Source: Chloroflexota bacterium
GTDB taxonomy: Bacteria > Chloroflexota > Anaerolineae > B4-G1
DNA length: 64,000 bases
Reading direction: 5' to 3'
NCBI GenBank assembly: GCA_024232355.1
Contig: JAAEPW010000191.1
Location: 8,146-72,145, forward strand
In this document: positions 37,974 to 61,350 of the stretch, piece after piece
How the letters are laid out: each line of letters begins with the position of its first letter
Numbering within the stretch: position 1 is the stretch's first letter
Position numbers and translations under genes: made by a program
Notes under the pieces: generated by a model
The model's input: the letters and a program-made list of their open reading frames with translations, nothing else
What the model was told of the DNA's origin: nothing
The model's database searches: none

Positions 37974-38503
37974 TATTCCTCCGGAACCCAGCCCGTCGGA
38001 TACCGTCGGGCCAGGTCTACGTACGTTTGCTTGAACCGAGTCCACTGGGCCTTGTATTCCTCGCTCACGGTCTTGTCCAGCACTTTGGCCGGTACACCCA
38101 CCGCAATGTGCCCCGACGGAATCTCTTGCCGCTGCCGCACCACCGCGCCCTCGCCCACCACGGCCCATTCGCCAATAGTCGCCCAATCAGAGACCACCGC
38201 GCCCATGCCGACGATGACATAGTCGTGCATCCTCTCCACGTTGTGGACAACCGCGCCGTGCCCAATGGTCACCCAATCACCAATCGTCGTCTGCTCACCA
38301 GGCCGGGCGTGAATGACGCAGTTATCCTCCACGCTGCAATAATCGCCGAGGACGATCGTGCCATAGTCCCCCCGAATGCGCGCTCCCGGGCCGATCCAGC
38401 ACTCTTTTCCGATGGTCACGTCGCCGAAAACGTCTGCCGAAGGGTGAATGTAGGTGCCCGGGCCGATGCGAGGCGTCTTGCCCTCAAAAGATGCGATCGT
38501 CAT
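37973..38503 (-). CDS. gamma-carbonic anhydrase / hexapeptide-repeat protein
   Basis: A 176-residue left-handed beta-helix protein of the YrdA/PaaY/CaiE group. Repeats such as IGKECWIGPGARIRGD, IVLGDYCSVEDNCVIHA and IGDWVTIGHGAVVHN run through residues 15-130. The zinc-binding His residues expected in gamma-carbonic anhydrases fall in CVIHAR, TIGHGAVVHN. An active carbonic anhydrase is possible, but many relatives have no proven activity. The start overlaps the OsmC stop (ATGA). A C-terminal helix of about 30 residues follows the repeats. Confidence 0.88.
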   Translation of the reverse strand: MTIASFEGKTPRIGPGTYIHPSADVFGDVTIGKECWIGPGARIRGDYGTIVLGDYCSVEDNCVIHARPGEQTTIGDWVTIGHGAVVHNVERMHDYVIVGMGAVVSDWATIGEWAVVGEGAVVRQRQEIPSGHIAVGVPAKVLDKTVSEEYKAQWTRFKQTYVDLARRYPTGWVPEE

Positions 38504-39075
38504 TGATTCGCCTCCACCTGGGCTTGCTCGAGCGCTTCCTCCAACTCGTCCAATTCGATGAGCATGGACGCTGGGACAGAATGTTTGGGCAAGCGGGCCT
38601 GCAAGTCGGCGATGCGCGCCTCTAGTTCTGCGATCCGACCGGTTGAGCCATCTGCCTCAACCTTGTACGACGTCGTAATATCTACGGCCTTGCTCAACAT
38701 TGCCGCCGCGGGGCAGTACGTGGTCTGCGAAAGCTCAATCGCTCGTTCCACTGCCTGAGCTTTGACCTCCTGTCCCTGGACGACAAACTCCAAGTGAATC
38801 TTGGTGTAAACCTTGGGATGTTCCTCCGCCCGCTCGGCAGAGACGTTGACCTGCAAGCCGGTGAAAGGCTGACGTTTTTTCTTTAGAATAGAGACGACGT
38901 CCATCGTCGTACACCCCGCCAAACCGAGGAGTAAAAGCTCCAACGGCCTGGGGCCTGCCTCAGTCCCTTCCTCCCCCGGCAAGAGATGGTCAAGGGTGAT
39001 TTCCGACCCGTTGCCGGATTGGCCCGCCAGCCGCAGCCCTTCCCCGGTCCACGCAACTTTTACCTCAGATGCCAT
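38500..39075 (-). CDS. OsmC/Ohr family peroxide-related protein
   Basis: A 191-residue OsmC fold. The two redox cysteines are in LLGLAGCTTMDVVSIL (about 54) and TTYCPAAAMLSKAV (about 120), the pair used by OsmC/Ohr thiol peroxidases. A C-terminal coiled coil (RIAELEARIADLQARLP, then IELDELEEALEQAQ) is an extension not found in standard OsmC and may give a larger oligomer. The start at 39075 has AAAGGAGAAA; the open frame upstream lacks one. It lies inside the redox row next to thioredoxin reductase, ferredoxin and the two selenoproteins. Confidence 0.9.
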   Translation of the reverse strand: MASEVKVAWTGEGLRLAGQSGNGSEITLDHLLPGEEGTEAGPRPLELLLLGLAGCTTMDVVSILKKKRQPFTGLQVNVSAERAEEHPKVYTKIHLEFVVQGQEVKAQAVERAIELSQTTYCPAAAMLSKAVDITTSYKVEADGSTGRIAELEARIADLQARLPKHSVPASMLIELDELEEALEQAQVEANQ

Positions 39076-39092
39076 TAGTTTCTCCTTTGCAC

Positions 39093-39425
39093 TTATCCAT
39101 CCAGGTGCGGGATGACGCATATAAACCGCAGTGGGCCTTCCCCTACATTCCGGTATCCGTGAAGCTCATTGGGTGGGATATAGAGTGCAACGCCTGGCCG
39201 CATCTGTACCTCGCCTTCCGGACCATGTGCCACGCCCTCTCCCTCCAAGACGAAAATCTCGTGCTCTTCGGGATGTTGGTGGGTGTCGAAAACGGCTCCC
39301 GGCTGAAATTCAATTACTCGCATAGCAAAGTTGGGTGCACCCTCAGACTTGCTGATCACCCAACGAATTGACTTGTCATCTCCAACAGGCTCCTGGGGAA
39401 CCTCTCGATAATCTCGACCTAACAT
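39093..39425 (-). CDS. cupin domain protein
   Basis: A 110-residue single-domain cupin. Motif 1 is FDTHQHPEEHEIFVLEGEG and motif 2 is IPPNELHGYRN, which together supply three His and one Glu for a metal. Such small cupins include dioxygenases, isomerases and storage proteins, so no specific reaction is proposed. AGGAGGG lies well before the ATG. The gap to OsmC is 17 bases, so they are cotranscribed. Confidence 0.9.
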   Translation of the reverse strand: MLGRDYREVPQEPVGDDKSIRWVISKSEGAPNFAMRVIEFQPGAVFDTHQHPEEHEIFVLEGEGVAHGPEGEVQMRPGVALYIPPNELHGYRNVGEGPLRFICVIPHLDG

Positions 39426-39758: not shown

Positions 39759-40769
39759 CTATCCTGCCTGTGTCTTGTCCACCTCTGATTGGGGATACTC
39801 GCCCAAAAATTTTTCCACTTCCATCGCCGCGATGGCACCCGTTCCAGCGGCGACCACAACCTGACGGTAGAGAGGGTCTTGTACGTCGCCAGCTACAAAG
39901 ACTCCCGGTATGTTGGTTTGCTGCTGGTGGTCAGAGACGATGTATCCCCAATCGTCCATCTTCAACTGGCCGGTGAACAACTCGGTAGTTGGCACCATTC
40001 CGACATAGATGAACACACCATCAGTCTCAATGACCGACGTCTCGTCGGTCTTGACGTTGCGCACTCGGACGCCGTTCACTGTCTGCTCACCCAAGACCTC
40101 TTCCACGACAGTGTCCCACACAAAGCGGATTTTCGGGTGCGCCAAGGCCTGCTCCTGGTAAATCTTGGTCGCCCGCAGTTCGTCACGCCGGTGAACAATG
40201 ATCACTTCATTGGCAAACCGGGTGAGGAAAATCCCCTCGGCGATGGCGCTATCTCCCCCACCGACCACCACGACCCGCTTGTCCCGGTAAAAAAATCCAT
40301 CACATGTAGCACAAGCCGAGACACCCCGTCCATAGAACTTGTCCTCACCCGGCACTCCCAAGCGGCGCGGAACCGCCCCCGTCGCCACGATCACAGTCTG
40401 CGCTTGATATGTCTTTGAGTGCGTGCGGATGGTAAATGGCCTGTTAGAAAAGTCTACCTCTGTCGCAATATCTACCACAACCTCGGCGTCAAAACGCTTG
40501 GCCTGACTGAGAAAGTGCTGACCCAATTCTGGACCATCGATTCCTTCAGGAAAGCCGGGATAGTTTTCGACGACGTCAGTGTTCATCGGCTGCCCACCGG
40601 GGATCGAGCCAGCCAGCACCAATGTTTTGACTCGCGCGCGTCCGGTGTAGAGGGCGGCAGTCAAACCGGACGGTCCTGCACCCAGAACGATCAAATCGTA
40701 CACTTGATCCTCTTGCGCTTCTTTCGCAGGCGGCTGTGTCTCGGGTTGCGTTAACTTGAAATCAAACAT
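39759..40769 (-). CDS. trxB: thioredoxin reductase
   Basis: A 336-residue NAD(P)H-flavin disulfide reductase. FAD binding: VLGAGPSGLTAALYTGRA (about 28-45). Active-site dithiol: SACATCDGFF (about 150, CATC). NAD(P)H binding: VVVVGGGDSAIAEGIFL followed by HRRDELRA, where the Arg pair favours NADPH. FAD end motif: VFVAGDVQD. It should reduce thioredoxin-type proteins. The disulfide oxidoreductase selenoprotein just upstream is the natural partner, as PDO-TrxB pairs are known. TGGAGAAA precedes the ATG. It has about 20 extra N-terminal residues before the FAD domain. Confidence 0.95.
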   Translation of the reverse strand: MFDFKLTQPETQPPAKEAQEDQVYDLIVLGAGPSGLTAALYTGRARVKTLVLAGSIPGGQPMNTDVVENYPGFPEGIDGPELGQHFLSQAKRFDAEVVVDIATEVDFSNRPFTIRTHSKTYQAQTVIVATGAVPRRLGVPGEDKFYGRGVSACATCDGFFYRDKRVVVVGGGDSAIAEGIFLTRFANEVIIVHRRDELRATKIYQEQALAHPKIRFVWDTVVEEVLGEQTVNGVRVRNVKTDETSVIETDGVFIYVGMVPTTELFTGQLKMDDWGYIVSDHQQQTNIPGVFVAGDVQDPLYRQVVVAAGTGAIAAMEVEKFLGEYPQSEVDKTQAG

Positions 40770-40905: not shown

Positions 40906-41559
40906 TTATTCTGTCGCGCCTGCAAGTGCCTCCTGCAGTTTTTCCAGCACCATCGGTTCTGGCGCTGCGCCCTCGATGTGCGTCGTCTCGTTGATCACTG
41001 TGCGCGGCACACCCATCACCTCGTACTTTACAGAAAGCTGGGGAAACTCTTGTGCCTCTACCATATCTGCTCGCACCAGGGGGCTAGCAATAGCCATTTG
41101 ATGAGCCATCATCACGGATGGCGGGCAGTACGGTCAGGTAGGGGTGATAAAGACCTGCATGTGCACCGGCTCGGTCAACCCCGCCAGCAACTGTTTCCCT
41201 TCCTCGCTTAACTCGGGTGTCCCGTCCGCCACGGTCTGGATCGCGTGGATCAGGGATGTAAATTCGTAACCGGCCGGAATGCCGTAAAAACGCACACCAT
41301 AGTCCTCTGCGCCTACAATCGCTATAGCCGGAATCTTGTCTATCCCCAATTCGTCGGCCTTTTCTTTGTCGGTTACAAAATCATAAATCTCGGCCGTCAG
41401 TTGCTCCGAGAGGGTAGCGATCTCCTCAACCAGTTGTCGGGTCTCGGTGCAAAATTGGCACTCGAATTCCTGAGTAAACATCATCATTTGAACCGGCCCT
41501 GTCAGGCCGGCTAACTGTTCTTTCACTTGTCCTGCAACTTGATCGTTCAGCAGAGGCAT
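40906..41559 (-). CDS. selenocysteine-containing glutaredoxin-like protein disulfide oxidoreductase (in-frame UGA at 41136-41134)
   Basis: Read through one UGA, the frame gives about 217 residues with two thioredoxin folds, the PDO architecture. Fold 1 has FECQFCTETRQLVEE (CxxC about 34-37) and a cis-Pro at DKIPAIAI. Fold 2 has MQVFITPT-U-PYCPPSVMMAHQMA, where UGA stands at the first Cys of the normal CPYC, giving U-P-Y-C, and a cis-Pro at MGVPRTVI. Similarity is continuous across the UGA, and a SECIS-like hairpin follows. AAAAGGAGAA before the ATG is a strong ribosome site. It is flanked by the CsoR-like gene (33 bases upstream) and trxB downstream. Conventional calling would split it into a 141-residue and a 69-residue piece. 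Confidence 0.88.
41105..41136 (-). promoter_or_regulatory. bacterial SECIS-like hairpin of the disulfide oxidoreductase selenoprotein
   Basis: After the UGA (41136-41134) come 17 bases, then the loop CGUGAU (41116-41111) closed by a perfect 6-bp stem GCCAUC/GAUGGC (41122-41117 with 41110-41105). G is at the second loop position and the distance is inside the 16-37 range known for bacterial SECIS elements. The stem is shorter than in the other selenoprotein. Confidence 0.65.
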
Positions 41560-41592: not shown

Positions 41593-41856
41593 CTATGCTA
41601 ATCTTGAGAGAGCCGTTGCCAACGCATCGGCGATCTCTTCTGGTGGACTATCCGACACGACACACTCGTTGGCATACACTCGCACCAGTGCCACGGTGGC
41701 CTGATGGGCAGCAGAACGAACGGCGGCCAATTGTTGTAGAATCTCGCTACAGTCCCGATCATCCTCAATCATTTTGGCGATGCCTCGCGCCTGCCCTTCC
41801 AGCCGCCGCACGCGCTTTAGTATATCAGCTTTGGCGGACGAACTAGCTAGTTTCAC
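41593..41856 (-). CDS. CsoR/CstR-family (DUF156) transcriptional repressor
   Basis: An 87-residue all-helical repressor. LKRVRRLEGQARGIAKMIEDDRDCSEILQQL (quoted in parts: RLEGQARGIAKM and DRDCSEILQQL) is the family signature with the first Cys. The second Cys is in VYANECV. The copper-type C-H-C set needs a His four residues before it, but here that position is Tyr. Loss of the His with both Cys kept is a feature of the CstR persulfide sensors rather than copper sensors. The start is GTG 41856 with GAGAGGG upstream. It heads the redox row behind FmdB and an inverted repeat overlaps the row's promoter, so it is the likely regulator. Confidence 0.85.
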   Translation of the reverse strand: MKLASSSAKADILKRVRRLEGQARGIAKMIEDDRDCSEILQQLAAVRSAAHQATVALVRVYANECVVSDSPPEEIADALATALSRLA

Positions 41857-42236: not shown

Positions 42237-42280
42237 TATTTTGCTTGTGGTTGACAATAATAACTGGCGAGGAGATTACA

Positions 42281-42766
42281 ATGACAAAATGTTTGTCTGG
42301 CTTGGTGTTTGTTCTGTTGTTTGCCACAATCTGGAGTGGTTGTGGTTTTGACCCTGCGGTGGTATCTGGTCCAGCCCCTGATTTTACCCTCAATAGCTTG
42401 AACGGCGACGCGATCACATTGAGTAACCTAAAAGACCAGATAGTGGTGCTAGACTTTTGGGCCACCTGGTGCCGTCCGTGTGTTGACGCGATGCCAGAAC
42501 TCGAACAATTGCATAAACAATATACTGCCCAAGGGGTGGTAGTGCTAGCGATCAACGTCGAGGAAAGTCGAGCCGATGTGGCCGAGTTTATGGCAGAAAA
42601 CGGCTATACCCTCACTGTACTGCTCGACGCCGATGGCCGTATCACCGATGCGTATGGTGTGAAAGGAATCCCGCACACCGTAATCGTGGATCGAGAGAGA
42701 GAGATGCACTATACCCTCAGCGTAGGTGACGTTGAGAACACGCTAGATCAGTTGCTGGAAGAGTGA
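42281..42766 (+). CDS. TlpA/ResA-like thioredoxin, exported
   Basis: A 161-residue protein with a hydrophobic N-terminus that may be a lipoprotein signal (VLLFATIWSGCGF, Cys about 21, box not canonical). The thioredoxin domain begins PAPDFTLNSLNGD and has the active site FWATWCRPCVDAMPEL (WCRPC, about residue 64). The cis-Pro is in VKGIPHTVIVD. Such proteins reduce disulfides outside the membrane, for example in cytochrome c maturation. Both active-site residues are Cys here, unlike the two selenoproteins. AGGAGATT precedes ATG 42281. It is divergent from the redox row and shares its intergenic region. Confidence 0.9.
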   Translation: MTKCLSGLVFVLLFATIWSGCGFDPAVVSGPAPDFTLNSLNGDAITLSNLKDQIVVLDFWATWCRPCVDAMPELEQLHKQYTAQGVVVLAINVEESRADVAEFMAENGYTLTVLLDADGRITDAYGVKGIPHTVIVDREREMHYTLSVGDVENTLDQLLEE

Positions 42767-61251: not shown

Positions 61252-61350
61252 GGGGGTGGTTGGGGCCCGGTGGCTTCCCCAGTCTTCAAAATTGGTGGCG
61301 GGTCGCGCAGAGCGAGCCGCGGTGGGTTCGACTCCCATCCACTCCCGCCA
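61252..61350 (+). tRNA. selC: tRNA-Sec (anticodon UCA), with encoded CCA
   Basis: A 99-base tRNA. The acceptor stem has 8 bp, GGGGGTGG (61252-61259) with CCACTCCC, one more than ordinary tRNAs and as in bacterial tRNA-Sec. Discriminator G and CCA follow (61347-61350). The D stem can form 6 bp (GGGGCC/GGCTTC). The anticodon stem CCAGT/ATTGG closes the loop CTTCAAA with anticodon TCA, which reads UGA. A long variable arm forms (GCGGGTCGC with GCGAGCCGC, one mismatch), and the T loop is TTCGACT. These features fit selenocysteine tRNA, not a suppressor tRNA. SelA, SelB and SelD genes are not in the window. Confidence 0.93.

Follow-up and report, generated by a model that had tools for sequence, protein, structure and literature searches.

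A selenoprotein family entered as 'homolog of AhpF, amino-terminal domain' (Grx-like domain protein) appears in the list of a 2006 survey, with members from Carboxydothermus hydrogenoformans and Symbiobacterium thermophilum (PMC1794560). The relevant portions of two reviews, of 2022 and 2026, list a TIGR02187 selenoprotein family with a UxxC motif, both crediting it to Kryukov and Gladyshev 2004 (reference 12) (PMC9312934, PMC13188914), and the later one places TIGR02187 selenoproteins, among archaea, in Asgard archaea (PMC13188914). As far as these portions go, it follows that the AhpF-homolog entry of 2006 and the TIGR02187 entry of the reviews are the same, the two being matched by name and by Carboxydothermus, not by sequences. 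A functional precedent comes from the protein disulfide oxidoreductase (PDO) of S. solfataricus, which, according to the part of the article cited here, takes electrons from an NADPH-dependent thioredoxin reductase and passes them on to peroxiredoxin, thereby reactivating it (PMC7278568).

Here, we describe a PDO gene in a 64,000-nt stretch of Chloroflexota DNA (the window, to whose positions all coordinates refer) that very likely carries selenocysteine (Sec) in the second active site of its product, judging from the sequence. The gene is real and belongs to a selenoprotein family that, by the sources above, is already in print. The published TIGR02187 UxxC selenoproteins share with the window PDO the profile family and a single Sec in UxxC, but the members named there come from other phyla. 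The literature searched held no report of a Sec-PDO in Chloroflexota, which is no proof that none exists, and 'Chloroflex' is absent from the searched text of PMC13188914.

Results

In a profile search, the product of the gene (Table 1) matches the NCBIfam model TIGR02187.2 (PDO_seleno_TRX) at 274.7 bits against a cut-off of 185, the match spanning residues 6–211 of the protein and positions 2–209 of the 209-position profile. The name of the model points to selenoprotein members, and we found no difference between it and the window PDO. Among sequences of solved structures, the PDO 1a8l aligns over residues 3–212 (E 1e-44), and the best five of the 13 distinct sequences matched are named PDO or glutaredoxin-like protein. 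By sequence, the protein has two thioredoxin folds, and each bears a site of the CxxC type, CQFC falling on CQYC and UPYC on CPYC of 1a8l and 1j08, which we take to be Pyrococcus-type PDOs; the alignment runs over nearly the full length, but these structures have Cys in both sites, whereas the window protein would have Sec in fold 2. The amino-terminal domain of AhpF is a more distant relation: the window PDO matches TIGR03140 at 85.7 bits and PDB 1hyu at E 1.1e-10, but that score lies far under the AhpF cut-off of 502.9, and the protein is free-standing, with thioredoxin reductase encoded separately. The nearest named relatives of the source organism are Anaerolineae and other Chloroflexota.

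An earlier sequence-only reading, which left the strand unstated, had proposed a PDO-type protein of 217 residues with CQFC in fold 1 and a UGA, read as Sec, in place of the first Cys of a fold-2 CPYC, adjoining thioredoxin reductase. The profile match, the reading frame and the alignment of homologues agree with it on each of these points, the reductase lying downstream on the same strand. The context of codon 142 is TPT-U-P-Y-C, and beyond the UGA the frame is intact and conserved up to the C terminus.

Table 1. Positions of the PDO gene, its sites and the surrounding features in the window
Feature	Position	Strand	Basis
Sec-PDO gene (predicted); 217 codons, ATG start, UGA (Sec) at codon 142, TAA stop	41559..40906	-	Reading frame; TIGR02187, 274.7 bits; alignment with 1a8l
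Fold-1 active site C34-Q-F-C37	41449..41460	-	Translation, alignment
In-frame UGA, codon 142 (predicted Sec), first position of fold-2 site	41134..41136	-	Homologue column, recurrence in Sec genes, 141-aa relatives
Fold-2 active site U142-P-Y-C145	41125..41136	-	Translation, alignment
Bacterial SECIS-like hairpin GCCAUC / CGUGAU / GAUGGC, G at loop position 2	41105..41122	-	Base pairing, geometry counts
Thioredoxin reductase, downstream neighbour	39759..40769	-	TIGR01292, 399.7 bits, over cut-off
CsoR/FrmR/RcnR-type repressor, upstream neighbour	41593..41856	-	PF02583, 82.7 bits
OsmC-family protein, same-strand run	38500-39120	-	Family assignment
ResA/TlpA-like thioredoxin, divergent from PDO cluster	42245-42766	+	PF00578
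tRNA-Sec gene, anticodon TCA	61252..61346	+	RF01852, 66.1 bits, cut-off 47; ARAGORN, 61252-61350

The column of the UGA holds Cys in all 120 homologues listed (the best 120 of 6437), and the fold-2 motif of these homologues and the query, taken as C, is CPYC in 119 of the 121 rows and CPHC in two. The sequence-only reading, which had staked its case on Cys at this column and on conservation of the second site in PDO homologues, is borne out on these points. The nearest full-length relative, P0002, is 90% identical to the window PDO, and its protein record gives Cys at the column. When the 141-residue piece upstream of the UGA served as query, 15 proteins among the best 120 of 2884 (P0122–P0135 and P0144) proved to be exactly 141 residues long, ending in TPT before the UGA column; the stop that follows is presumably UGA in each. 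Database gene calls of close relatives thus break off at residue 141 in 15 of the best 120, and Sec-PDO genes are therefore under-annotated. One of these short relatives, P0132, is annotated as alkyl hydroperoxide reductase subunit AhpF. The gene shares with bacterial selenoproteins an in-frame UGA where homologues have Cys, flanked by conserved sequence on either side.

In a sample of 400 Chloroflexota genomes searched at a PDO threshold of E 1e-40, 111 genomes have a PDO, with 116 genes in total. Exactly one in-frame TGA occurs in 54 of these genes (53 genomes) and TAA or TAG in none; each of the 54 was read, and in every one the TGA takes the first position of the fold-2 site. The 2006 list names two members of the family; in this one phylum it proves common, and the search for Sec variants in other Chloroflexota, proposed in the sequence-only reading, yields 54 of 116 PDO genes.

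A combined set of these genes, the relatives of the window PDO and the window itself comprises 129 rows, 59 Sec and 70 Cys, with L125, a Cys form without fold-1 CxxC, counted as Cys; six of the 116 genes, all without internal stop, were left out of it (G111, G139, G191, G324, G279 and G381), and the duplicate loci L021–L024 and L027 were removed. With the window counted, 50 of the 59 Sec rows keep fold-1 CxxC, as do 56 of the 70 Cys rows, so a Cys centre combined with a Sec centre is the normal arrangement. The sequence-only reading had presented Sec in just one of the two sites of a PDO as new; this point fails because the TIGR02187 selenoprotein family, by the portions of the sources cited above, was already published and because the CxxC/Sec form is the usual one in our set. 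Two of the 59 Sec rows (L019 and L020) and some Cys rows carry titles of other phyla.

The phylum of G020, to which L020, titled Armatimonadota, belongs, has PDO in 27 of 43 genomes (31 matches), and 20 of these matches contain a single TGA, which here too takes the first position of the fold-2 site. Fold-1 CxxC is missing in 14 of these 20 Sec forms, compared with none of the ten full-length Cys forms, and in those 14 Sec would therefore occupy the only CxxC-type centre left. A U-P-H-C fold 2 without fold-1 CxxC was seen in L143, L145, L147–L154, L156, L157, L160 and L163 of this phylum. No Sec in fold 1 was seen among the rows examined from the Chloroflexota sample and the phylum of G020; the phylum of G017 was represented by one genome. 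In the order and class of G001, the search found no Sec-PDO resembling that of the window. Within the order, three of 43 PDO matches have an internal TGA, which in L168 and L189 is the terminal stop, and eight have TAG or TAA, ordinary C-terminal stops in the four that were read (L174, L182, L192 and L195).

A tree over 141 columns with 76 rows, 16 Sec or truncated and 60 Cys, places the window in a 13-row clade with 11 of the 15 relatives of 141 residues and one Cys form, P0002 (support 97/91); it needs four Cys/Sec changes, of which supported branches force three. In a 148-row tree without the truncated relatives, the Sec/Cys label switches 14 times, at least ten of them demanded by supported branches, and the window is grouped with 29 Cys rows as the sole Sec row (97*). 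The 148-row tree had suggested that the window switched from Cys to Sec recently and alone, a reading dropped once the 141-residue relatives were added.

The place of the window in the 148-row tree would also suit a nonsense mutation, that is, a decaying Cys-PDO gene making only the first fold of 141 residues, as would the Cys of its nearest full-length homologue at 90% identity and the existence of a locus, L187, that resembles such a case. This explanation is nevertheless very improbable, as the frame remains open and conserved beyond the UGA as far as the C terminus, 15 relatives stop at the same residue, and the stop met within the 54 genes of the 400-genome sample is only ever TGA and always at this codon. 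Besides, were codon 142 a Cys codon, a single substitution could create a stop in the gene in 74 ways, counted unweighted, of which one gives TGA at that codon.

In L187, from the order of G001 and 64% identical to the window PDO, the TGA takes the place of the second Cys of fold 2 (CPY-stop, 1079–1081), with an intact frame beyond. The locus shows no hairpin of at least 4 bp 12–29 nt after the TGA, the best tRNA-Sec match in its genome, at 46.8 bits, stays under the cut-off of 47, there is no 144-residue protein among its best 120 relatives, and a 98% identical relative is full length. Since hairpin, tRNA-Sec over the cut-off and truncated relatives are all lacking, its TGA is probably a nonsense change or an error; if real, L187 would be a CxxU form. 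Stray TGAs at Cys codons thus do occur in PDO records, and the supports found for the window are not automatic.

The hairpin downstream of the UGA in the window has arms GCCATC (41122–41117) and GATGGC (41110–41105) around the loop CGTGAT (41116–41111). The 6-bp stem, the 6-base loop and its G at position 2 are as the sequence-only reading had them, whereas the distance of 17 bases that it gave from UGA to stem is that from UGA to loop, the stem beginning at 11 nt. In counts uncorrected for relatedness over 59 Sec and 68 Cys rows (L125 being excluded for its alignment and L015 for an unmatched motif), the full layout of the window, with a 17-nt spacer, 6 bp and a 6-nt loop, occurs in nine Sec rows and no Cys row, and the same spacer and stem occur with a 5-nt loop in eight and none and with a 4-nt loop in two and none. 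The 6-nt-loop geometry with at least five of six pairs is less distinctive (14/59 Sec against 11/68 Cys rows). In this layout the paired positions differ from row to row in both arms of the stem; relative to the commonest stem, the window has C-G instead of G-C at pair 3 and U-A instead of G-C at pair 5, as counted over 17 of the 19 rows with the layout, L082 and L084 being excluded from the per-pair counts as they fit both layouts.

The second layout has a 4-bp stem, again with G at loop position 2, and a loop 4 nt further from the UGA (GGCC-AGGUU-GGCC type, for example in L037, L053 and L058); judged by its three inner pairs, 40 of 59 Sec rows have it, against 10 of 68 Cys rows. Its outer pair joins two third-codon positions and forms in 38 of the 40 Sec rows, as G-C, C-G, A-U or wobble, a figure equalled in none of 10000 permutations; these positions also pair in 44 of all 68 Cys rows. 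The sequence-only reading had proposed covariance as a test of the hairpin; the observations that bear on it are the variation in both arms of the stem and the outer pair of the second layout. Taken alone, the stem of the window is only moderately unlikely to have arisen by chance.

The median hairpin energy is -6.2 kcal/mol in Sec rows against -3.15 in Cys rows, and the -7.7 kcal/mol of the window is reached by 18/59 Sec and 9/68 Cys rows. Synonymous shuffling of the window sequence returned its own hairpin in 1579 of 20000 cases and any comparable 6-bp hairpin in 3688 of 20000, while its energy was reached in 250 of 4000 synonymous recodings. Single-strand folding of the 51 nt after the UGA was set aside as uninformative, the minimum-energy fold being a different pairing (z -1.08, with 28 of 200 shuffles folding as well). 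The window thus has the downstream hairpin with a G in the apical loop that belongs to a bacterial selenoprotein, a feature that says little for the window by itself.

A sequencing or assembly error at 41134–41136 in what would be an ordinary Cys-PDO gene is very improbable. The termination of 15 of the 120 best matches at residue 141 speaks strongly against it, these proteins coming from several sources (jgi, lgn, ncbi and ena), as does a hairpin beside the UGA with a geometry found in Sec rows and absent from Cys rows.

The cut-off for tRNA-Sec, exceeded in the window, is passed by 344 of the 400 Chloroflexota genomes, and a test of co-occurrence between tRNA-Sec and Sec-PDO therefore did not discriminate. 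In a table read by eye, the best tRNA-Sec match has E of 3e-11 or less in 47 of the 53 Sec-PDO genomes, and G141, G161, G187, G218, G251 and G341 have only matches at 1.6e-8 or above. The stop codons of 20 window genes checked are TAA in ten, TAG in six and TGA in four, so TGA also serves as a stop. That the UGA is read as some other residue, through stop reassignment or plain suppression, has a negligible chance: we found no specific evidence for it, and a tRNA-Sec with a TCA anticodon lies on the contig, the column is Cys among the best 120 of 6437 homologues, and TGA still ends other genes of the window.

Neighbours were surveyed by tblastn with the protein of the window as query, in flanks limited in length. 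The order csoR-like, pdo, trxB recurs in seven close loci (L001–L006 and L018), every one a Cys form, so that the window has a Sec form where its kin have a Cys form. For the csoR-like product of the window, no NCBIfam model passed its cut-off. Only 4 of 58 Sec loci and 10 of 69 Cys loci have a thioredoxin reductase no more than 1.5 kb from PDO; with the seven loci of conserved order all being Cys forms, a donor role is thus weakly supported for Sec forms in general. For the window PDO itself, the neighbouring thioredoxin reductase is likely the electron donor, by analogy with the S. solfataricus system. Ten loci of the set have an OsmC homologue no further than 1.5 kb from PDO, and in ten a TlpA-like gene comes after PDO on its strand, again at 1.5 kb or less.

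Discussion

We put the probability at roughly 0.94 that the gene encodes a working TIGR02187-family selenoprotein, in which tRNA-Sec would decode UGA 142 as Sec with the help of the hairpin just 3' of it. Fold 1 of the protein would then hold a dithiol site, CQFC, and fold 2 a selenol-thiol site, UPYC; the sequence-only reading suggested that such a split would alter the potential and direction of the protein. In the most likely scheme, NADPH would reduce the neighbouring thioredoxin reductase, which would in turn reduce the PDO, and the fold-2 selenol would be the fast attacker of substrates, either peroxiredoxin or protein disulfides, with fold 1 acting as its partner or as a second site. 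By analogy with the S. solfataricus system, the window PDO would most likely be a selenium-boosted reductase that receives its electrons from the adjacent enzyme.

A broader and tentative idea is that the first residue of fold 2 toggles between Cys and Sec repeatedly in Chloroflexota PDOs, as in a selenium-tuned relay whose fold 1 remains a dithiol or is lost; Sec might then mark fold 2 as the centre that attacks substrates, and fold 1 as the site of electron entry or as a dispensable second site. Close pairs of Sec and Cys forms, such as the window PDO and P0002 (90% identical) or L009 and L011 against L010, offer natural material for measuring the effect of Sec in a two-site oxidoreductase. 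Both a Sec-PDO and a Cys-PDO occur within the same genome in four Chloroflexota genomes of the sample (G056, G125, G178 and G228).
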